Source of the DNA: Aureispira sp. CCB-E
Lineage (GTDB): Bacteria > Bacteroidota > Bacteroidia > Chitinophagales > Saprospiraceae
Assembly: GCF_031326345.1 (NCBI RefSeq)
Contig: NZ_CP133671.1
Coordinates: 5,456,001-5,520,000, forward strand
Direction of reading: 5' to 3'
Length of the DNA: 64,000 nt
In this document: positions 47,018 to 63,138 of the stretch, in pieces
Position numbering within the stretch: the first letter of the stretch is position 1
Layout: every line of letters begins with the position of its first letter
The notes under the pieces: model-generated
What the model was told of the DNA's origin: nothing
The model's database searches: none
Seen by the model: only the letters and a program-made list of their open reading frames with translations
Made by a program: the position numbers and the translations under genes

Positions 47018-50000
47018 TTATCTCAATAAAGTTATATTTCCTTTTTTTATCAATTCATTACCATCCAAACATCGACACCGCATATAATACCCGTATACAT
47101 CTGGCGGACAATCTTTTCCTTTAAACTTGCCATTCCACCCCATATTTTTATCCGTGGACTCAAAAACTTGTTCCCCCCAACGATTATATATCATAAAACG
47201 TATCTCCGTAATTATATTTCCTTCGACATAAATAACATCATTATAACCATCGCCATCTGGTGAAAAAGCATTTGGAACAAATATATTAGGTTCCTCACAA
47301 ATTGGCAAAGCAACATGGATAATTATAGAATCTTTTGTCCGACATCCTAAAGCATCTGTTACCGTCAAATAATACGTTGTTGTTTCTTCTGGTGTTGCAA
47401 TTGGATTAAAAATAGTATCTCCACTCAACGTAGGATGGCTATTCCAACTATACGTATATCCTGCTTGTTGTGTTGCTAGTAACTGCACTGCGCTTCCTGA
47501 GGGTATGGTGTCCTGATTTGCAATAATAGAAAGTGCAGGGTTGCTTGATGCAACATTAACTATAGTTTGAGCAGTAGTAATACAGCCGTACTGATTTTGA
47601 GCGGCAACAAAATAACTGGTCGTACTAGTTGGAGCCACCCAAATATTATCTGTTCCTTGTCCCGAAACAATCGTGCCAGTAGGTGTCCATTGATAGGTCA
47701 AACTGTCATTTAAATTTAAATTGATCACTGTAAGCTGTACTGGTACCGTTTCACAAATTAATGCTGCGGAATCCAACAATACCTCCACAGGATAATATTC
47801 TACTTGTACAGAATCCATACGCACACATCCTAATGTATCTTCTACCTGTACATAGTAAACGTGTTGATTGTTCACAACGTTGGTCTGCAAATTTGGATTT
47901 TGCGATAGAATGTTGTTAAAAGTAGCATCATCAGCCCAAGTATATTGTGCCGTTCGGCTAGCATTGGCAGTTAAGGTAATATTGGGTTGGCATAAGATTG
48001 TGTCCAAAGGCACACTTAATCCCAAAGGAGATACGATATGAATCGTTGTTTCCGCAGAATCTATACAACCGAACTGATTCGTCCCTACCACCTTCAAACT
48101 AGTTGCGGTATTGCTTTCAACAAGCACACTATCCGTTCCTTGTCCCGCAAGAATTATATTGTTGGGTGTCCAAATATAGGTTAATGTATCCCCCAAATTA
48201 TTACTCAACACTTGCAAAGCAAGAGAATCTGCACCACAATTGGCATATATCGAATCCAAATCTAAAGCAACCGCCCTACGACTAACAACAATAGAATCTA
48301 CACCACGACACCCAAAACTATCCTGTACTTGCACATAAAAACTATTGTATACATCAACCAAACTTGCCGTCAATAAAGCATCGTTGTCTACAATAGTCTG
48401 AAAATTTCTACTTGTTGACCAAGCATAATTTATCATTTGAGAACTGCTTGCTACTAAATTAATACTAGTATCACAAGATATGGTATCACCCTGAATTTGA
48501 ACGGTAGGGGCAGGTTGAAGTGCTACAAAAATAGAATCTTCTTGCCAACAAGTATCCAATACCCCACCAAAATTGGAGTACCCATACACTCGAACAGTAT
48601 AAGTCGTATTTGTTGTTGGCAAAACCGTAGGATTAGCAACTGTAGAATCGGACAGTCCTGCACTTGGCGACCAAACATAGATCAAATTAGGTTTTGTTTG
48701 AATGTTCAGCACAATAGAATCATTCCCACATGTCGCCACGCTATTATTAGGAACATCTAAAACAGGAATTTGTGCGGTCAATTGTTTGCTTATTCGTCCT
48801 GTACAGTTTCCTATTATTTGAATTTGTAAATCAATGTTATAAGTAGAATCTATAAAATAAGTTGCGATAGGATTTTGCACCGTAGATGTTTGCCCATTCC
48901 CTAAATTCCAATTCCAATTAGTAATAAGTGTGTCTCCAGATATGTCTTGAAATTGAACAACCAATGAATCGCCACAATTTACAGGCGTCATGCTAAAGTC
49001 AATGGGAATATCATTTCCTCTATAATTAACAAAGACAGAGTCGAACGCCTCACAACCAAAACCATTTTCTCCTCGCACATAGAACCACCTAGCATCATTT
49101 ATATTTGTCACCAATGTCGCTCCTACTCCTATAATTGCATTAAAATTTCGATCCAACGCCCATTCAACAACAGTAGCACTAGGAGCATTGACACTCAATT
49201 CCACCTGATTCAAACACAAAACAGTATCTCCCATTACATCAAAAATAAAACTATCGACACCAACAACAACAGTATGAGTCAACACACAAGTATCTAAATC
49301 GTTAATTCCTGTTACCGTTACTGTATAGGCAGTTGTCGTTGTGGGGCGAGCAATCGGACTCGGTATGGTAGGATTATTCAAACTTGTTGCGGGAGCCCAT
49401 TGATAAATCAAATTCGGATTTCCTCCAATATTCAACTGTACGGAATCTACATTACACAAACCAATACTATCGCTGGAGTTGATAATAGGCAAATTATAAT
49501 TTAAGGTATCAACAAACGTTCCTGTACAACCGTTGGTTGCTGTTGCCGTTAAACGAACAATGTGCGTTCCACTAGAAGGATACTGAGCCAAGCCATTCGT
49601 TGTATAGGCTGTTGATCCATTTCCAAAATTCCAAACATAACCTTGCAATTGAGTTCCTGCAGGAAAAGTAGTTGTATTAATAAACGAAACGTCTAAGGTA
49701 TCGTCACAATCATTTATTTGTGTTATAAAACTTGTTGGAATTGGTATGTTTCGCCGATATATTTTAGCGGTATCTTCTGCAGTGCACCCATATTGATCCG
49801 TAGCTCGAACATAGATCAATAAGTTAAATGGTGGATTGGGCAAGCCCACAAAAAAATTGGTGGTGTTTGAAAGTGCTATCGGATTAAAGGTAGGCGAAAA
49901 AGACCAATCTACCTGAGTAGCATTATCAATTGTCGCCATCACATTAAACACACTTCCACAAACTACGGTATCTTTTGGAACCGCTATGTTAATTGGTGGC

Positions 50001-53000
50001 GCTTGAATGACGGTCACATCATGAATTGCAAAACAGGTATCTATTGAACTATAGCCTGTGACACTTACCGTATAGGTAAAAGGGGTACTAGGAACACTTG
50101 CTATTGGCGAAGCGTCGCTCGTACTGGACAAGAATGCCGCAGGCGACCATTGGTAATCTAAGTTAGGATTGCCTCCCGGATTAAGAACTAAGGTAGAATC
50201 GCCATTGCACAAAACGACCGTAGAGTCGGTTGTCAAAGAAGCAATATTTAAGGTCAATGTATCTTCCAAGCTTCCACTACAACCATTTGCTAAGGTAACC
50301 TCAAGACGAACAGTTGTCAATTGACTTTGTGTAAAGACAAATGTTGGATGTTGTTGCGTAGAGCTCTGACCATCTGAAGTTGTCCATAACCAACTCACAA
50401 TCGGACTCACGATTGTGTCTGCTGTCAGGTCTGTAAATTGCAAGGCAATGGTATCTGAACAGCCCAAGGATTGATAAGCAAAATTCACATTGACAGGAAC
50501 TTGATTTTGTTCTACTAGAGCAAATGCTGTTGCTGTACATCCATAAGGATCTGTTGCTCGAACATAGTATCCTGCATAAGGAAATGTCGTTGGCGTTGCC
50601 GTATAAGGATTTCCTGTACCTATAATTGTACCAAAACTAGGGTCACCTGCCCATTCATAAAAAATTGCTGTAGGACTAGAAGCTACTAAATCAACTGTAT
50701 TTCCACAATATACGGTCAACGGTGGAACGGTTACGGTTACAGGGGGCGGAAAGTTAACATGTACTTGTTCTATATTGACACAGGTATCGCTGCCATTTAT
50801 GGCTGTAATAGTTACGGTATAAGTTGTTGGGATAACGGGTGTTGCAATAGGACTAACAGCTGTGGCACTACTCAGTGTTGCCGCTGGTGACCATAGATAC
50901 TGCAAACTAGCATCTCCATTGGGGTTCAGTTGCACAGAACTATTGCCTTGACAAATCCCAACCGTATCGCCATTGGTTAACTGAGGAATTGTTACATTAA
51001 CAACATCCTCAAAACGTCCAATACAACCATCTATTGTCACAACATCTAATGCAACAATATAACTTCCTGACTGTTGATAGTTATGTACAGGGTTTTGCTG
51101 GGCACTCCCATTAGAATCTCCAAAATCCCACGACCAACTGGCAAGACTCCCTCCTGACAAATCTGTTGTTTGATCAACAAATTGTACGGTAAAAGTAGAA
51201 TCGCAAGTTAACAAACTATATGCCCAATCTACTGTAATCGGGGTATTCCTTTTGATAATATCAACCGTATCAATAATAGAACAGCCTGCAAAATCAGTGG
51301 CACGTACTAAAATCCGTGTCACCGTTGTAACAGGAATTCGAATACTATCTCCTGTAAATAAAATCGTATTAAATGCAGGGTCTGTCGTCCATTCAATTAT
51401 TTGAGCATTATTACTAACTGCCACAATTGAAATAGAATCTTGGCAGGTAATCGTATCTCGAATCACATCTAGTGTAATCGGAGGAGGTAAGACAACCGTA
51501 ATGCTACGTTCCAAGACACAGGTATCTATGCCATTGGGTACTGCAACGGTAACAAAATAAGTCGTTGGTCCCGATGGACTAGCAATAGGACTCGCTACGG
51601 TTGTACTACTCAAGCCTGCTGCTGGTGACCATTGATAGACGTGATTGGGATTGCCCCCTGGATTTAAAACAACAGAACTATTCCCATCACAAATTCCTAC
51701 CGTATCGGCACTAAAAACAACTGGCAAATCAAGCGTTATGGTATCTGCATAGCTCGCTGTACAGCCATTGGCAGCCAAAACATTCAAGTTAATAATATAG
51801 GTCCCTGACGTATCATAAACGGTCGAAGGATAAGGAATGGTGTCGGTATCGCCATTTCCAAAATCCCAATCCCATTGCACAATACTGCTGATGCTATCAA
51901 TTGTTAGATCAGTAATATCCAAAAAGAAGGAATCTGTACAATTAGCTGTTGTTATATCAAAATCGGCATCAATAGATTCGTATTGCAAATAAATTTCTTG
52001 GGTAGAGGTATCGGCACACAAAGTTCCAGGATCAGCAATCAAAGTAACCGTATATCGTCCAGTATCTGGATAAATATAAGCGGGATTAGAAAAAGTAGAA
52101 GTTGCATTGTTGTCCCCAAACGACCAAACAAAGCCTGTCCCTAAAGAAGCACTGTTGTTTTGAAAATTAACAACCAAAGAATTATCACATTGAATATCTG
52201 GTGCAAAAAATGCTGAGGATACCAAACGTCCACATACACCTACGACATATTGAAAGTCACGCCGAGTAGTAGATATTAAAACACCATTTCTATATTCGCT
52301 GGCACAAACACCAACCACAAAAACGCCCAATACATCTGGTGTTCCAGTCAATAATCCTGTCGAAGGGTCTATTTTTAAAGAATCTGGTCCTCCCAACATA
52401 TTGTTGACACTGTAAGGAGGCTGCCAAATAACTGGATTATACGGTGGATTATTGGGAGGCTGTGGCATTGACTGACTTGGCGTAGCTCCTGTAAAAGGGG
52501 TACACAGTTCATATACAATAGAATCTCCATCGGGGTCAAAAGCAGAATGGTTATACACAATTGGTACTCCTGCACAAATATACACTGGAGGCCATTCTAT
52601 GAATCGAGCGCTACTATTACACGTTAACAAGGCTTCTTCTGATACATAAGAGGAATAGGTGGCTCCTGTCGACGTTGGTGCTACAATATTGACAATATCT
52701 TGATTTCGGCAACAACGCTGGTAAACAATTTGATAACCACCAACTCGAAAAGGTAGGGTAATCGTGTCTAAATATGTTGTCGTGTGAATGCAAACATTGG
52801 GTGGGGCTACCAAACAGGGATCTGTTAAATTCAAATCCAAAGTATCATTGTTTCTTAACTGTAATCGTAAATCATAAATTAAAGAGTCGTTGATGTCAAA
52901 TACACCTATCGAAGCAGGATTATCAAACCATGGAACCCCTGTATCACAATCTCGAAATACGGTAACCATAATTTCATATTGATCATTTCCTAGGCAACGA

Positions 53001-53104
53001 TAATTTATTTCTCCACCGACCATATGTGTTGCCAAAACTTTAGACGATAAGCAATTCAAAAGAAATAAATAGACAAAAACGATATGGAAGTATTTTCTAT
53101 TCAT
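47018..53104 (-). CDS. Giant SprB-like PKD/Ig-repeat adhesin with type B sorting domain
   Basis: 2028 residues. Signal peptide to about residue 26 (KVLA), then a cysteine-rich N-terminal region to about 300 (THMVGGEINYRCLGNDQYEIMVTVFRDC, RCCRN) found in many gliding-associated proteins. About five tandem units of roughly 210 residues follow. Each unit is a PKD domain (WxWDFGNG...) plus an Ig-like domain with QWSPAAGLSS...SPIAxPxxxTTYxVTV and a third domain ending YVRATDxYGC; two variant units (WTPxxxxxxGQGTD) come last. The C-terminus is a canonical type B domain (FVPNAFSPDGDGYNDV ... GNITLLR). Probably a surface filament or adhesin exported by T9SS. Confidence 0.94.
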   Translation of the reverse strand: MNRKYFHIVFVYLFLLNCLSSKVLATHMVGGEINYRCLGNDQYEIMVTVFRDCDTGVPWFDNPASIGVFDINDSLIYDLRLQLRNNDTLDLNLTDPCLVAPPNVCIHTTTYLDTITLPFRVGGYQIVYQRCCRNQDIVNIVAPTSTGATYSSYVSEEALLTCNSSARFIEWPPVYICAGVPIVYNHSAFDPDGDSIVYELCTPFTGATPSQSMPQPPNNPPYNPVIWQPPYSVNNMLGGPDSLKIDPSTGLLTGTPDVLGVFVVGVCASEYRNGVLISTTRRDFQYVVGVCGRLVSSAFFAPDIQCDNSLVVNFQNNSASLGTGFVWSFGDNNATSTFSNPAYIYPDTGRYTVTLIADPGTLCADTSTQEIYLQYESIDADFDITTANCTDSFFLDITDLTIDSISSIVQWDWDFGNGDTDTIPYPSTVYDTSGTYIINLNVLAANGCTASYADTITLDLPVVFSADTVGICDGNSSVVLNPGGNPNHVYQWSPAAGLSSTTVASPIASPSGPTTYFVTVAVPNGIDTCVLERSITVVLPPPITLDVIRDTITCQDSISIVAVSNNAQIIEWTTDPAFNTILFTGDSIRIPVTTVTRILVRATDFAGCSIIDTVDIIKRNTPITVDWAYSLLTCDSTFTVQFVDQTTDLSGGSLASWSWDFGDSNGSAQQNPVHNYQQSGSYIVALDVVTIDGCIGRFEDVVNVTIPQLTNGDTVGICQGNSSVQLNPNGDASLQYLWSPAATLSSATAVSPIATPVIPTTYTVTITAINGSDTCVNIEQVHVNFPPPVTVTVPPLTVYCGNTVDLVASSPTAIFYEWAGDPSFGTIIGTGNPYTATPTTFPYAGYYVRATDPYGCTATAFALVEQNQVPVNVNFAYQSLGCSDTIALQFTDLTADTIVSPIVSWLWTTSDGQSSTQQHPTFVFTQSQLTTVRLEVTLANGCSGSLEDTLTLNIASLTTDSTVVLCNGDSTLVLNPGGNPNLDYQWSPAAFLSSTSDASPIASVPSTPFTYTVSVTGYSSIDTCFAIHDVTVIQAPPINIAVPKDTVVCGSVFNVMATIDNATQVDWSFSPTFNPIALSNTTNFFVGLPNPPFNLLIYVRATDQYGCTAEDTAKIYRRNIPIPTSFITQINDCDDTLDVSFINTTTFPAGTQLQGYVWNFGNGSTAYTTNGLAQYPSSGTHIVRLTATATNGCTGTFVDTLNYNLPIINSSDSIGLCNVDSVQLNIGGNPNLIYQWAPATSLNNPTIPSPIARPTTTTAYTVTVTGINDLDTCVLTHTVVVGVDSFIFDVMGDTVLCLNQVELSVNAPSATVVEWALDRNFNAIIGVGATLVTNINDARWFYVRGENGFGCEAFDSVFVNYRGNDIPIDFSMTPVNCGDSLVVQFQDISGDTLITNWNWNLGNGQTSTVQNPIATYFIDSTYNIDLQIQIIGNCTGRISKQLTAQIPVLDVPNNSVATCGNDSIVLNIQTKPNLIYVWSPSAGLSDSTVANPTVLPTTNTTYTVRVYGYSNFGGVLDTCWQEDSIFVALQPAPTVQIQGDTISCDTSINLVASSSQMINYAWSTSRNFQTIVDNDALLTASLVDVYNSFYVQVQDSFGCRGVDSIVVSRRAVALDLDSIYANCGADSLALQVLSNNLGDTLTYIWTPNNIILAGQGTDSVLVESNTATSLKVVGTNQFGCIDSAETTIHIVSPLGLSVPLDTILCQPNITLTANASRTAQYTWADDATFNNILSQNPNLQTNVVNNQHVYYVQVEDTLGCVRMDSVQVEYYPVEVLLDSAALICETVPVQLTVINLNLNDSLTYQWTPTGTIVSGQGTDNIWVAPTSTTSYFVAAQNQYGCITTAQTIVNVASSNPALSIIANQDTIPSGSAVQLLATQQAGYTYSWNSHPTLSGDTIFNPIATPEETTTYYLTVTDALGCRTKDSIIIHVALPICEEPNIFVPNAFSPDGDGYNDVIYVEGNIITEIRFMIYNRWGEQVFESTDKNMGWNGKFKGKDCPPDVYGYYMRCRCLDGNELIKKGNITLLR

Positions 53105-53423
53105 CAACAACAAAGGGAAAATTTGGATTGTGTGTATCTATCCGTTTCATCTTTAAAAGACAACACTAAGCACACTTTGAAGTAAACTTTAAGATAGCAT
53201 TTTTTTAGGAAGTTCCCTATATCTTGAATTACAATTTATCAATAAATGACAATATACAAGTCTTTGGTTTTGTGTTTAAATTGTTAATACTCCGTTGATT
53301 TTTTAATAATTTTCAACGCCCCCCCCTTTTTTTAGAGGATTACATGATGAAAAGGTAGCGTATATGAGGGAAATGATTAGATGTAGTTAGTGTGTTCCAT
53401 ATACCCCCTACAAAATGGGTATA
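53105..53423. other. Intergenic region with C8T7 tract and hairpins
   Basis: No gene. It holds an inverted repeat CGTTGA...TCAACG at about 53293-53318, a run of eight C then seven T at 53319-53333, and an 8-bp stem ATATACCC/GGGTATAT (53399-53406 with 53417-53424) overlapping the stop of the kinase gene. The last may serve as its terminator, though it has no T-run. Confidence 0.45.
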
Positions 53424-55670
53424 TCATTTATATGTTTTAAGTTCCTGTTTTAAGACTTTAATCTCTTGGTTAATTTCCGTCAACTCATCTTCTTTATCCT
53501 GAATTTCAATTTCTAGTTTTTGAATACTTTTGAGGAGTTTTCTAAAGCTAGTATCCATTAAGTTAGCATCTATCTTAGTTCGTTCACGCATGGTGTCAAC
53601 CGACTCTTTTACCAAGTCCTCTATTCGAATTTTGTATTCGTTCGCATTGCCCAATAAATCAGCGTGTTTCTTATCAAAGGTTGTTTTGATCTCTTTCAAT
53701 TTTTCATTCAATTCTATCTCTAATGCCTTCAACTCTTGAATCGTTGTAGGGATGTCGAGAGAATCCTTAGGGGCATTCAGTTGATTGGGACCATTGAGGA
53801 GTTGTTGAGCATTTAATTGCTGGTTTAGGAAAGCTATTTTTTGAGCAGCTGATTTGCCTTGCAATGTAGCATAAACAGGATGTTTTTCTAAGATTTTGGT
53901 ATAATCTAGTCGAGCCTGTTTCAAGGCAGCAGCTTCTTCCTCCATCAATAATTTGGCTTTTTTGTCTTGTGCTTGAATAGCCTTTTTTTCTTCGTTCAGT
54001 TGAGAAGAAATATCCCGATTAGAAGCAAGAATAGTTGCCGTGTTTTTTCGAAAAAAGTCTTTTTCTTTGTCTACTTTAACCTTCGACCAAACAATTAATT
54101 CGTTGCGAATTTCTCTTAAACGTTGCTTAATTTTTGAACGCTGATTGTACAACGTATATTGCAATTCTTCTAAGCTTCTCTGTTTTTGCCCCTCTGTAAA
54201 CGATAACTTGCCAATTAGATTTTTTCGAGTTTGTTGTGTTCTATCTTTTAAAACAGACGAAAATTTTGGAAAACTGGCTACTAAAAATGGGAGTAACAAC
54301 AACAAAAATAACAAGCCCGACCCACCTATATCCAAAATTAACCCTAAAATAAAGCCAAAAATACTACCAACCGACATAATTGCATATCCAATATCACTCA
54401 AAGGGCCACCTGTTAAGACGGTAACAATCAGAAACAAAGCAAATACTACTGCCAAAACCTGAAAGGTATATTTAAAAACCTGTCCAATTACTCGACCTAC
54501 CTTCTTATAATTCTCCATCGCCTCTTTCCAAACGGCTTCAAAAGAATAGGTCATTTGAGGTGCTGCAACTGTGGATTGCTTTTGGGATGGAGCTAATAAA
54601 TTTTGCTCCTTTAGAGCCTTTTCTAAAGCCATTACGAACCAATTATTTTCATTGATTTTATTTAATTCCAATGTTTTAGAAGGTAGTGGTCGATTGGTAA
54701 GTAACAAAGGATTATTGGCTAAAGTTCGCCCCCATTCCTCGGCAGTTGGTCGCAATTTGGGATTTTCATAACCACTGACAAAAGCGCCCATAAATAGTTT
54801 TCTTAAATCCCGATCAATCTTGGCAAATCGTCGATGAGGCGGCGGCACAACGGTAAATTGTTGTGACAATTTAGGATCATGCACAAACAACCCATGCTTA
54901 ATTTTATCACCCAAAGCATTTACATTATCATAAGGGGCTTTGGAGGTTGCCGCATAAGGATGCACCCCAAACAACAAGCGGTAATAAATTACAGCCAAAC
55001 TAAAATTATCCCAAGAAGGATCTATCAAAACTTTTCCTGGCTTTGTTCCTGTGTAATATTCATTAGGGGTGTATTCTGGGGTCGCAACAGTAGCAGGGAA
55101 AAGAGTCATACCATTTTCCACTACTTCTATAGAATCAGTGTCTACAATAGAAACAACTCCGTTGCTTTTAATCAAAATATTGTCTGGCTTTAAATCCACC
55201 AAAACATATTTTCCCGTTGCATGCACCATCCTTAACGCTACCGCCAAATTATAACAAACTTTTAAGCGCAAACGTAAGGCTTCATCACCTCCTAACTTAA
55301 AGCGTTTCCATTCTTTCCCTAAATGTTTGGGTAATTTAGGAGATGTCAAAATTTCCAACTTCTCTCCTGTTGCCTTCGGCATAACAAACCCTGCAAAATC
55401 GCCTTGGGCATCATACAACATGTGCTTGACCCAAACAATCGGCTGTTCGTTTAAAGCACCTTCAAAAAAGGGAGGATTCTCTAATAAGTACTCAATTTTC
55501 GCTTCTTTTTGTGCATCTCGTTTATTCAAATGAAAAACTTTGGCTACACAATTGCTCAACTCCAACGGTTGCAAGATTTTAAACAACTCTCCCTCTCCTC
55601 CTGAAGCAAATGGATTATCTTCTATGATAACCGCTTGATTGATGGATTTTATGTACAGTTGTTTTGGCAC
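53424..55670 (-). CDS. Membrane-spanning Ser/Thr protein kinase with coiled-coil tail
   Basis: 748 residues. The kinase domain covers about 15-320: glycine loop ASGGEGELF (22-30), VAK lysine K44, catalytic VLVDLKPDN (D159, K161, N164; the HRD histidine and arginine are replaced), and DTD in place of DFG (D177). A polar linker follows, then two or three transmembrane helices between about 400 and 467, and a long charged coiled coil (about 480-748). It is the last gene of a kinase/PP2C/TerY-like vWA triad on one strand, the TerY-P arrangement. The kinase faces the cytosol; the coiled coil probably does too. The family role is stress-linked phosphosignalling; the target is unknown. Confidence 0.88.
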   Translation of the reverse strand: MPKQLYIKSINQAVIIEDNPFASGGEGELFKILQPLELSNCVAKVFHLNKRDAQKEAKIEYLLENPPFFEGALNEQPIVWVKHMLYDAQGDFAGFVMPKATGEKLEILTSPKLPKHLGKEWKRFKLGGDEALRLRLKVCYNLAVALRMVHATGKYVLVDLKPDNILIKSNGVVSIVDTDSIEVVENGMTLFPATVATPEYTPNEYYTGTKPGKVLIDPSWDNFSLAVIYYRLLFGVHPYAATSKAPYDNVNALGDKIKHGLFVHDPKLSQQFTVVPPPHRRFAKIDRDLRKLFMGAFVSGYENPKLRPTAEEWGRTLANNPLLLTNRPLPSKTLELNKINENNWFVMALEKALKEQNLLAPSQKQSTVAAPQMTYSFEAVWKEAMENYKKVGRVIGQVFKYTFQVLAVVFALFLIVTVLTGGPLSDIGYAIMSVGSIFGFILGLILDIGGSGLLFLLLLLPFLVASFPKFSSVLKDRTQQTRKNLIGKLSFTEGQKQRSLEELQYTLYNQRSKIKQRLREIRNELIVWSKVKVDKEKDFFRKNTATILASNRDISSQLNEEKKAIQAQDKKAKLLMEEEAAALKQARLDYTKILEKHPVYATLQGKSAAQKIAFLNQQLNAQQLLNGPNQLNAPKDSLDIPTTIQELKALEIELNEKLKEIKTTFDKKHADLLGNANEYKIRIEDLVKESVDTMRERTKIDANLMDTSFRKLLKSIQKLEIEIQDKEDELTEINQEIKVLKQELKTYK

Positions 55671-55713
55671 GTTAGGAGTTGATAAGTTTTAATGGGAAAT
55701 TAGTCGCTCAATG

Positions 55714-56613
55714 CTAGAGATTTTCTTCTTTTTTGGGTTGAATGTTTTTTTCGACTATAGGCGCATAAACACCTAAAATCATTGTTTTATCATCTGTTTC
55801 GTGCTTAAATTGCTTGCTGCCATCTTTTAGAAAGCCCCCCCAAATAGCATTAATTTCTTCCTGTGATTTTCGCTCTTTTTTAAGCTGTAACATTCCATTT
55901 AAGTTCGGTTCAAAAAACTTATTGTATGGACGGTTGGGGTCATGGTACTTCTGTTTTTCTTCGTCCCAGACATTGACTTCAAAAGAGCCATTTTCACAAC
56001 CATCGCTCAACAACGCAAAGGCTCGAATATCGTTCTTAATAACTCCCGTTTCGATGTATAAATCCACACCGTCTGTTGTCCAGATATTAGAGGTGATAAA
56101 AACAGTCTCATTTACCTCGCTTCCCCTAAACGGCTCTATCAATGCTTCCCATTTGCCTGGCTCGACCGAATAAGCAGCTCGACCATCTCCAATATGCGTG
56201 GTTAAAATGCCAAAAGGAGCATACAAAACAGCCAATACAGTACATGCCAAATCTGGTATTTTATAAGCCTTGGCAGTAGCAAATTGTTCCAAACGTTGTC
56301 GAACGATTTGCAATCCTTTTAATGCTTCTACTCTCCAAACTTCTTCAGAAGGCATTTTCTCTGCGCTATCCCAACCATTTCTTTGAACAATTTCTTCCAG
56401 ACAATGCGCCATATTTCGGGCTACAAAATCCGATCCTATATCTGAATGCTTAGCAGATCCTGCACCATCTGCAACGACAGCTACTCCCCACGTTTCGTTG
56501 ATTCGTTGATGGGCACAACTGTCTTGACAGGGCAAATTCATCAAAACATGCCCATTTCCAATTACAGAAGCATAAGCGACAACCCAATTTGTATTCTTAT
56601 TATTGCTAGACAT
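55714..56613 (-). CDS. PP2C-family Ser/Thr phosphatase
   Basis: A 299-residue metal-dependent phosphatase. Motifs in order: SVIGNGHVLMNLPCQDS with D31, GVAVVADGAGSAKHSDIGS (metal ligand D49 and G50), TTHIGDGRAAY, and ALLSDGCENGSFE. The final metal aspartate is probably in HETDDKTMIL. It lies 43 bases upstream of the kinase gene and is transcribed in the same direction, so it is the natural counter-enzyme of that kinase. The TerY-like vWA gene precedes it. Activity should reverse kinase autophosphorylation or its substrates, an inference from the triad. Confidence 0.92.
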   Translation of the reverse strand: MSSNNKNTNWVVAYASVIGNGHVLMNLPCQDSCAHQRINETWGVAVVADGAGSAKHSDIGSDFVARNMAHCLEEIVQRNGWDSAEKMPSEEVWRVEALKGLQIVRQRLEQFATAKAYKIPDLACTVLAVLYAPFGILTTHIGDGRAAYSVEPGKWEALIEPFRGSEVNETVFITSNIWTTDGVDLYIETGVIKNDIRAFALLSDGCENGSFEVNVWDEEKQKYHDPNRPYNKFFEPNLNGMLQLKKERKSQEEINAIWGGFLKDGSKQFKHETDDKTMILGVYAPIVEKNIQPKKEENL

Positions 56614-56767
56614 TTTTTTGTTGTTAACAGTTTGTTTTCAATCAGTATCAAGTAGTAGTTGGCAGCGTTGCTAACTACTTATCAAGAACAAACTAATGCA
56701 AAAACCAAAAGGATAATGATGCGACAGGGCTTCACTATCCAATTGTTTCTATTTTTTTAGGCGTTCC

Positions 56768-57436
56768 CTAGAATTTCATTTGAGCCCAGTCACTTACTGG
56801 TGGCAACTCAATGCTATCTCCTTCTTTGGATTTGGTAATAATTCCAATACTATTACTCAACCACTTGAAGAATTCTGCAAATTTATATCCAGCTAATGGA
56901 ATTGCTGGGGCAGAATTCGGACAAATCTCATTCAATACATGTTGATTAAATCCTTTTACCCCTAGTCCCCAAAAAGTAAACTTTTTGGAATCTACAGCAC
57001 TTTGAATTTCACTAGACAAACCTTTTACATCCTGATCTCTGTCTGGTTCACCATCCGTAATCAAAACAATAATCGGTCGATAATATGGCTGCCCTGTTTC
57101 TTTATACCACTGCTTGCGTTGTTCTGTTTTACGCATCGCTTCCCGAACAGCATCTACCAAACGAGTAGTCCCTGCTACTGTTAGCGTTGGCATATCAAAA
57201 TTATCAATCAACGCAGGATCTTGGATTGTTTTAATACTACTACCAAATGTAATAATTCCAACCTCTAAACGATTGGCGGCAATCAGATCTTCTTCTATCG
57301 CTGCATAAAATTCTTGTAAGCCTCGATTTAGCTCTCGAATCGCTGCACCACTCATAGATCCAGAAGTATCTAGAACTAAAGTACACAGACATTTTTGCTC
57401 GTAATTGTCAGGGGTTTCTCCTTGAAAGTAACTCAT
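56768..57436 (-). CDS. TerY-like von Willebrand factor A protein
   Basis: 222 residues, one vWA domain filling the protein. The MIDAS metal site is intact: D23-TSGS in VLDTSGSMSG, the T of VAGTTRLVDAV near 95, and D in LITDGEPDRD near 128. The C-terminal extension (FAEFFKWLSNSIGIITKSKEGDS) matches TerY-type proteins of tellurite/stress clusters. It is the first gene of the kinase/phosphatase triad. No TerC or TerD gene is visible within the window. A vWA scaffold assembling the kinase and phosphatase is the usual interpretation. Confidence 0.92.
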   Translation of the reverse strand: MSYFQGETPDNYEQKCLCTLVLDTSGSMSGAAIRELNRGLQEFYAAIEEDLIAANRLEVGIITFGSSIKTIQDPALIDNFDMPTLTVAGTTRLVDAVREAMRKTEQRKQWYKETGQPYYRPIIVLITDGEPDRDQDVKGLSSEIQSAVDSKKFTFWGLGVKGFNQHVLNEICPNSAPAIPLAGYKFAEFFKWLSNSIGIITKSKEGDSIELPPVSDWAQMKF

Positions 57437-61133: not shown

Positions 61134-61958
61134 ATGAAATTTACAGGAACTGACCATTATATAGCCTCCAAAGATTTGCAATTAGCCGTTAATGCTTCCA
61201 TTGCTATGGAGAAACCGTTATTAATTAAAGGAGAACCAGGAACAGGAAAAACATTATTGGCACACGAAATTGCTAAAGGATTGAATAAACAACTCTTTAC
61301 TTGGCACATCAAATCGACTACCAAAGCACAACAAGGTTTGTACGACTATGATGCCGTGTCTAGGTTGAGGGATTCTCAATTGGGAGACGAAAAAGTACAT
61401 GACATTTCCAACTACATTATCAAAGGAAAACTATGGGAGGCTTTTGAAGCAGACGAGCGAGTTGTTTTATTAATTGACGAAATCGACAAGGCGGATATTG
61501 AGTTCCCCAACGACTTACTACTAGAGTTGGATAAAATGGAGTTCTTCTGCTATGAACTCAACAAGACCATTAAAGCCAAGCATCGCCCAATTGTTATTAT
61601 CTCATCGAATAACGAAAAAGAACTGCCAGATGCTTTTTTAAGACGTTGTTTTTTCCATTATATCTCCTTTCCTGATCGAGCTACTTTGAGTCAAATCATT
61701 GAGGTACACTATCCCAATTTGGAACAGCGTTTGGTTCACGAAGCAATGGAGCAATTCTATGCCATCCGAAACATCCGAGGTTTAAAAAAGAAACCGTCTA
61801 CGAGTGAGTTATTGGATTGGATTAAGTTGTTAATGGTTGGCAACATTAATGCAGATGGTTTAAAAGAAGCACAACAACAAGGTCGTATTCCATTGGTTGG
61901 GGCTATCATTAAAAATGAACAAGACTTGGCATTGTTAAAACATTTGCAAAAAAATTAA
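61134..61958 (+). CDS. MoxR-type AAA+ ATPase
   Basis: A 274-residue AAA+ ATPase. Walker A is GEPGTGKT (residues 33-40), Walker B LLIDE (112-116) with IDKAD following, sensor 1 IISSNNEKELPDAFLRRC with an arginine-finger pair. MoxR ATPases work with vWA proteins as chaperone/insertase systems that mature cofactor-bearing enzymes or complexes. The vWA gene follows after one base, confirming a CoxD/CoxE-like pair. No oxidase or dehydrogenase target gene is adjacent. Confidence 0.94.
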   Translation: MKFTGTDHYIASKDLQLAVNASIAMEKPLLIKGEPGTGKTLLAHEIAKGLNKQLFTWHIKSTTKAQQGLYDYDAVSRLRDSQLGDEKVHDISNYIIKGKLWEAFEADERVVLLIDEIDKADIEFPNDLLLELDKMEFFCYELNKTIKAKHRPIVIISSNNEKELPDAFLRRCFFHYISFPDRATLSQIIEVHYPNLEQRLVHEAMEQFYAIRNIRGLKKKPSTSELLDWIKLLMVGNINADGLKEAQQQGRIPLVGAIIKNEQDLALLKHLQKN

Positions 61959-61959
61959 G

Positions 61960-63138
61960 ATGTTTTTAGATTTTTTCTTACTCCTAAAACATCAAGGCAT
62001 TCCTGTTAGTTTGGTGGAGTACTTGTCCTTATTAGAAGCCCTCAATAAAGGTGTTATAAAAAAAAGTGTTGACGAGTTTTATTACTTGTGCCGCATTTCT
62101 CTTGTTAAAAATGAAAAGCATTTAGACGATTTTGATCGACTATTTGGATTATATTTTAAAGGTATTGAAACAATTACAGATGAAGCGTTATTCGAAATCC
62201 CTGAAAACTGGCTTACGCAAAACGGAGAACGATTGTTCTCCCAAGAAGAAATGGACAAAATCAAAGCCATGGGTGGACTCCAAAAATTGCTTGAGCGCAT
62301 CCAAGAGCTTTTCAAAGAACAAAACGAACGACACCAAGGAGGAAACAAATGGATAGGTACTGGTGGTACTTCTCCTTTTGGGGCTTATGGTTATAACCCA
62401 GAAGGCATTCGTATTGGTCAACACGAATCTAGGCATCGTCGTGCGGTCAAGGTTTGGGACAAACGCAATTTTGAAAATCTCAAAGACGATGTAGAGTTAG
62501 AGACTCGAAATATGAAACTGGCATTAAAACGCTTGCGCAAAATTACCCGTGAGGGAACAGAGGAAGAATTAGACCTGCAACAAACCATCAAAAAAACTTC
62601 TGAAAATGCGGGAATGCTGGAGCTAAAAATGTTGCCCAAAAAGAAAAATACGGTTAAAGTTTTGCTGTTATTAGATATTGGAGGTTCTATGGATGACCAT
62701 ATTGAACTTTGTTCGCAGCTTTTTTCGGCGGCTAAATATGAATTCAAAAATCTAGAATTCTATTATTTTCATAATTGTGTTTACGAAATGCTATGGAAAG
62801 ATAGTACTCGGCGTTGGGGAGAATACATTTCTACCTATGATGTTCTCAACAAATATAATAGTGACTACAAAGTCATTTTTGTAGGTGATGCGGCTATGTC
62901 TCCTTATGAAATTATGATGAAGCATGGCAGTGTAGAACATTATAATGAAGAAGCAGGAATTGTATGGCTCGATCGTTTTAAACAAAAATTCAAAAACTTG
63001 GTCTGGTTAAATCCGTTGCCTCAAAACGAATGGCAATGGACTCGCTCTATTCAAATGCTTCAAGAATTCACTGAGCAAAAAATGTTTCCTCTGACCATTC
63101 GTGGGATTGGAGAAGCTGTGGATGCTCTAAAAGATTAA
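61960..63138 (+). CDS. CoxE-like vWA-domain protein
   Basis: 392 residues. The N-terminal helical region (1-130) and a glycine/arginine-rich linker precede a vWA domain from about 230. The MIDAS start reads LLLDIGGSMDDH (D239-x-G-G-S243) instead of DxSxS, as is usual in the CoxE family. FVGDAAMSPYEIM supplies a later metal-site segment. It is paired with the MoxR ATPase gene one base upstream, so both act as one complex, probably in the cytosol. It is unrelated to the TerY-like vWA gene 5 kb upstream except by domain. Confidence 0.9.
   Translation: MFLDFFLLLKHQGIPVSLVEYLSLLEALNKGVIKKSVDEFYYLCRISLVKNEKHLDDFDRLFGLYFKGIETITDEALFEIPENWLTQNGERLFSQEEMDKIKAMGGLQKLLERIQELFKEQNERHQGGNKWIGTGGTSPFGAYGYNPEGIRIGQHESRHRRAVKVWDKRNFENLKDDVELETRNMKLALKRLRKITREGTEEELDLQQTIKKTSENAGMLELKMLPKKKNTVKVLLLLDIGGSMDDHIELCSQLFSAAKYEFKNLEFYYFHNCVYEMLWKDSTRRWGEYISTYDVLNKYNSDYKVIFVGDAAMSPYEIMMKHGSVEHYNEEAGIVWLDRFKQKFKNLVWLNPLPQNEWQWTRSIQMLQEFTEQKMFPLTIRGIGEAVDALKD

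Follow-up and report, generated by a model that had tools for sequence, protein, structure and literature searches.

A likely Bacteroidota version of the YegL-PphC-YegI phospho-switch in Aureispira and a vWA-PP2C pair that may serve several kinases

Three neighbouring genes of Aureispira sp. CCB-E, encoding a vWA-domain protein, a PP2C phosphatase and a Ser/Thr kinase, likely represent a Bacteroidota version of the YegL-PphC-YegI phospho-switch, in which the vWA-PP2C pair probably also serves seven kinases of the same family encoded elsewhere in the genome. By sequence comparison the triad is a distant Bacteroidota homologue of E. coli YegL-PphC-YegI, nearer to this set than to the TerY-P triad. 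Taken alone, the locus is homologous to a known system, and only the Bacteroidota variant and the one-to-many copy numbers are new here. The features of the triad, at positions of the window (the whole 64,000-nucleotide stretch analysed), are:

56768-57436, minus strand: YegL-like vWA-domain protein, 222 aa, intact MIDAS (Pfam VWA, E=1e-9)
55714-56613, minus strand: PphC/YegK-like PP2C phosphatase, 299 aa, metal-site motifs kept (Pfam PP2C_2, E=6e-34)
53424-55670, minus strand: YegI-like Ser/Thr kinase, 748 aa, GTG start (Pfam Pkinase, E=1e-11)
54711-55670, minus strand: kinase domain, residues 1-320 (alignment invariants over 35 kinases, motif table)
54273-54542, minus strand: hydrophobic segment of the triad kinase, residues 377-466 (hydropathy and model helices)
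53427-54269, minus strand: C-terminal helical tail of the triad kinase, residues 468-748 (AlphaFold model and heptad test)

The triad and its relatives

Transcription runs in the order vWA, PP2C, kinase, and all three Pfam domains score above cut-off; open reading frames and Pfam thus bear out the earlier note, which had seen three same-strand genes of these types. The vWA and PP2C genes are separated by 154 nt, the PP2C and kinase genes by 43 nt. Promoter and terminator scans between the genes came out near chance, with no signal clearly above it, and an Rfam scan around the triad found no RNA. The neighbourhood contains a PKD/T9SS protein, a rhodanese, a fatty acid hydroxylase and an AAA-CoxE-vWA pair. 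The PKD protein, directly downstream of the kinase (47018-53113), is 2031 aa long, with PKD/Ig repeats and a CHU_C type IX secretion signal. The pair (61134-63138) consists of an AAA ATPase and, after it, a CoxE-like vWA protein, and lies on the other strand, upstream of the triad by about 3.7 kb; it is a vWA system distinct from the triad and is syntenic in the congener G021.

Each of the three proteins has its homologue in E. coli, with identities of 28-37% across the members in BLASTP: the vWA protein matches YegL (E=6e-36, 37%), the phosphatase PphC (YegK; E=2e-25, 28%) and the kinase YegI (E=5e-20, 29%, over the kinase domain only). The gene order of E. coli K-12, yegL-pphC-(yegJ)-yegI (b2073-b2072-b2070), is also that of Aureispira, on one strand, although yegJ has no place in the Aureispira triad. 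The vWA protein has an intact MIDAS, as had been claimed, with D23-S25-S27, T91 and D128 invariant in an alignment of six homologues. The metal ligands noted earlier in the phosphatase are likewise there, in the motifs DGAGS (D49), SDG (D204) and DDK (D274/D275), which are invariant in the aligned homologues.

How common is this arrangement? A neighbourhood survey had been proposed in the earlier note, and adjacency indeed turned out to be frequent. In a vWA-alignment scan with one genome per species, we kept the best 80 of at least 181 relatives; among these 80 loci a PP2C gene is adjacent to the vWA gene in 70, and 54 contain the contiguous vWA-PP2C-kinase set (62 if both partners may lie anywhere in the stretch). 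In some of these best 80 loci the kinase is located further along by a few kilobases, and several contigs stop early. The 80 loci come from Bacteroidota, Verrucomicrobiota, Cyanobacteriota, Chloroflexota, Armatimonadota, Acidobacteriota, Planctomycetota, Nitrospirota, Pseudomonadota, Bacillota and others. Past the triad of one related Bacteroidota locus (L049, 1217-10885, genome G281) lie a gene for an FtsK/EccC-like ATPase, several small ORFs and a gene for a protein containing an ADP-ribosyltransferase domain; these suggest that a type VII-like secretion cassette is attached to this triad. A secretion link for the Aureispira triad was considered and rejected, as this ATPase has no counterpart in the Aureispira genome.

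The earlier note had called the locus a TerY-P triad. With TerY-P defined as in PMC11090510, the vWA-PP2C-kinase arrangement and its order stand, but membership in the strict sense fails in the tree, zinc-ribbon and ter-gene tests. The alternative would be a true TerY-P triad of the Ter, CoCoNuT or defence type that has lost its ter partners and works as a stress or anti-phage switch that senses metals or nucleic acids. It would explain the identical three domain types in one operon and in identical order; stand-alone anti-phage TerY-P-like modules are described in the same paper, and the FtsK/EccC-like ATPase past the triad of L049 recalls some TerY-P clusters. In a maximum-likelihood vWA tree, however, the 11 TerY sequences all split off from the 44 YegL-like ones with support of 99, and the Aureispira vWA protein sits on the YegL side, within an eight-member Bacteroidota branch (support 100), apart from both plasmid and Bacteroidota TerY. 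The kinase contains two cysteines only, Cys41 and Cys139, with no Cys pairs, and therefore has no zinc ribbon; its tail is helical, with no OB-fold seen. The absence of ter genes nearby, already remarked upon, extends to the whole genome, which contains no TerD-family gene, and no restriction or nuclease genes were found among the tested genes flanking the triad. TerY-P triads proper (TerY, PP2C and a kinase-zinc ribbon protein, in the annotated reference plasmid R478 and in L178 and L179) differ in their separate vWA clade, in the ribbon and in their TerD/TerC genes, the last two of which the Aureispira triad lacks. Their kinases also have an unlike catalytic loop (CHSDLSYKNVL / IIDVDG). True triads exist in the same family and look different: those of G049, G018 and G015 are Ter-linked, with TerY vWAs, kinases carrying a cysteine ribbon (CPFC) and short proteins whose N-terminal sequences look TerD-type. 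PADLOC was uninformative: its hits in the Aureispira triad amount to generic kinase similarity, and at a stricter cut-off it gives none for a genuine TerY-P set or for the one of E. coli. On these results the Aureispira triad falls outside TerY-P in the strict sense, and we regard the lost-partner alternative, which the tree disfavours, as improbable.

The kinase domain, membrane segment and tail

The kinase carries a GGEG loop, K44, VLVD(159)LKPDN(164), D177-T-D179, E204, D221 and R307. The HRD site thus reads VLVD (residues 156-159) and the DFG site DTD (residues 177-179), and a hydrophobic segment follows the kinase domain. These departures from textbook kinases had been pointed out before and are real, but they are standard for the YegI branch. 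K44, D159, D177, D179, S180, E204, D221 and R307 are invariant in an alignment of 35 kinases from many phyla, and YegI itself reads VVGD at the HRD site and DSD at the DFG site; since D159, D177, D179 and S180 never vary and YegI is likewise altered, VLVD/DTD follows a rule of the YegI-like family (xxxD, DxDS). The AlphaFold model, built with the 35-sequence alignment, is confident over residues 1-320 (pLDDT mostly 80-98), and Foldseek matches it to Hanks kinases including PknB with probability 1.00. Pfam, alignment and Foldseek together identify a Hanks-type kinase, with the kinase fold and the catalytic Lys, Asp, Asn and Asp. Three unannotated human-gut phage records (MT836238.1, MT835511.1 and MT837596.1) contain stretches that resemble kinases and share about 30% identity with the Aureispira kinase.

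Could the protein be a pseudokinase scaffold? HRD and DFG each keep only their D, the other residues being replaced, and the alpha-C segment lacks the conserved Glu, having the invariant Lys K58 there instead. On the other hand, the beta-3 Lys, the catalytic Asp, the Lys and Asn of the catalytic loop and the metal-binding Asp are all retained. YegI, with fewer canonical residues (GDVNQNS, compared with LVDLKPDN in Aureispira, which keeps Lys161 and Asn164), is reported to be active as a kinase (PMC13232886). A scaffold role is therefore very improbable, and with the essential Lys, Asp, Asn and Asp in place the Aureispira kinase should be active, as reported for YegI. Across the 35-kinase alignment a Glu in the glycine loop (E26) is also invariant, along with K58 at the alpha-C position where Glu is usual; the family may be marked by a rearranged salt bridge.

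Past residue 320 the model continues with a disordered linker, hydrophobic helices at 377-419, 428-447 and 452-466, and further helices up to the C-terminus, this tail being modelled at lower confidence than the kinase domain. Two or three membrane helices had been proposed here from the outset; hydropathy and model agree on hydrophobic helices, and the kinase is predicted to cross the membrane with two or three of them. A coiled coil of about 270 residues, also proposed, stood only in part, as a crude heptad test finds clear periodicity for residues 641-747 and not for the rest of the tail. Residues 466-486, just past the last hydrophobic helix, contain five K/R against one D/E, and by the positive-inside rule this favours a tail that is probably cytoplasmic.

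Like E. coli YegI, the kinase has altered HRD/DFG sites that keep the catalytic Asp residues, and membrane helices and a C-terminal tail after its kinase domain; its helical tail is longer, and both the CPWC motif and the helix-hairpin-helix region of YegI are missing. CPWC follows the kinase domain in nearly all YegI-type kinases and is absent from the Aureispira kinase and from two Bacteroidota relatives, L069 and L070; since the Cys pair is gone in the latter two as well, its absence is a trait of this Bacteroidota branch. CPWC and the helix-hairpin-helix are common but not universal in the family, and we did not treat them as triad-defining. Profile comparison of the Aureispira tail with YegI-type tails gave no match, and nothing credible for a helix-hairpin-helix remnant. 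Tails differ across the YegI-like family, with WD40 repeats in 4 of the 35 kinases. In some cyanobacterial kinases of the family (L108, 9361-11520, and L110, 12123-14234) six or seven membrane helices are predicted to follow the kinase domain, compared with the usual one or two. PknB and StkP are transmembrane Hanks kinases with an extracellular PASTA sensor and PP2C partners; the Aureispira kinase resembles them in fold, membrane anchoring and paired PP2C, but differs in lacking the PASTA sensor, in its motifs, in the third, vWA partner and in the probably cytoplasmic tail.

One vWA-PP2C pair and eight kinases

The less expected point is the kinase copy number. The Aureispira genome (7.39 Mb, 2 contigs) encodes one YegL-like vWA protein, the sole match, one close PP2C with two more distant PP2C genes, and eight YegI-like kinases, of which the seven outside the triad are 36-52% identical to the triad kinase:

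Orphan YegI-like kinases: L059, L060, L061, L062, L063 (two in tandem) and L064

These orphans have no vWA or PP2C neighbours, and no common theme emerged among the neighbours tested. Their tails are diverged, long and helical, and in six of the seven the kinase domain leads into a hydrophobic segment, which hydropathy does not detect in L061. Among 61 genomes of the family, five have close vWA proteins (E below 1e-100), and exactly these five have close kinases (best E no higher than 1e-100); the chance of this coincidence is 1.7e-7 if genomes were independent, which they are not, as the five may be one clade. The congener G021 keeps the syntenic neighbourhood with vWA (89%) and PP2C (77%) but no kinase after them, and has two orphan kinases on another contig, while in G099 and G173 the vWA, PP2C and kinase genes are dispersed.

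Given these copy numbers, the dispersed genes of G099 and G173 and a G021 pair that lacks an adjacent kinase, it is simplest to suppose that the pair serves kinases whose genes lie elsewhere. Some of the same facts would also fit three neighbours that each act on their own, with the kinase as one of eight paralogues whose functions are unrelated: 154 nt separate the vWA and PP2C genes, the G021 site has no kinase and the genes are scattered in two genomes. Nevertheless, the order is kept across many phyla, an enzyme-substrate relation of PphC and YegI is reported for E. coli (PMC13232886), and vWA and kinase co-occur exactly in the family, so independence is unlikely. The argument for sharing consists of copy number and five genomes that are maybe one clade, with phylogenetically non-independent co-occurrence. 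The orphans could instead be regulated by other phosphatases, two distant PP2C genes being present, and G139 (91% complete) has a YegI-like kinase but no detected vWA or PP2C, which also speaks against sharing. We therefore propose only tentatively that the pair is a shared control hub for eight diverged, mostly membrane-anchored kinases with different helical tails.

Proposed mechanism and meaning

An adaptor role for the vWA protein is suggested by general knowledge of vWA domains, and a possible analogy is the archaeal ArnA-ArnB complex, in which ArnB is a vWA protein. That complex is described as loose when unphosphorylated and tight when phosphorylated (PMC12852372). In E. coli, YegI autophosphorylation is reported to be reversed by PphC, with PphC and YegI as enzyme and substrate (PMC13232886), and by homology to this biochemistry we infer the enzyme activities of the Aureispira kinase and PP2C and their action as a reversible switch. 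The membrane-anchored kinase would phosphorylate itself and other targets, the PP2C would remove these phosphates, and the vWA protein, via its metal-binding face, would be the adaptor that joins kinase, phosphatase and/or target; the same pair would probably also serve the seven unlinked kinases. That the vWA protein assembles kinase and phosphatase into a membrane-linked switch is plausible, and an envelope signal is possible.

The YegL-PphC-YegI triad is spread widely over bacterial phyla; the literature searched gives no inducing signal or downstream target for it, and contained no description of one-to-many wiring. If the hub is true, several inputs or targets would be handled through one phosphatase and one adaptor. 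The Bacteroidota branch is a natural experiment, in which a single adaptor-phosphatase pair coexists with many kinases and a congener has the pair but not the adjacent kinase; the partner relations of the triad are therefore directly testable.
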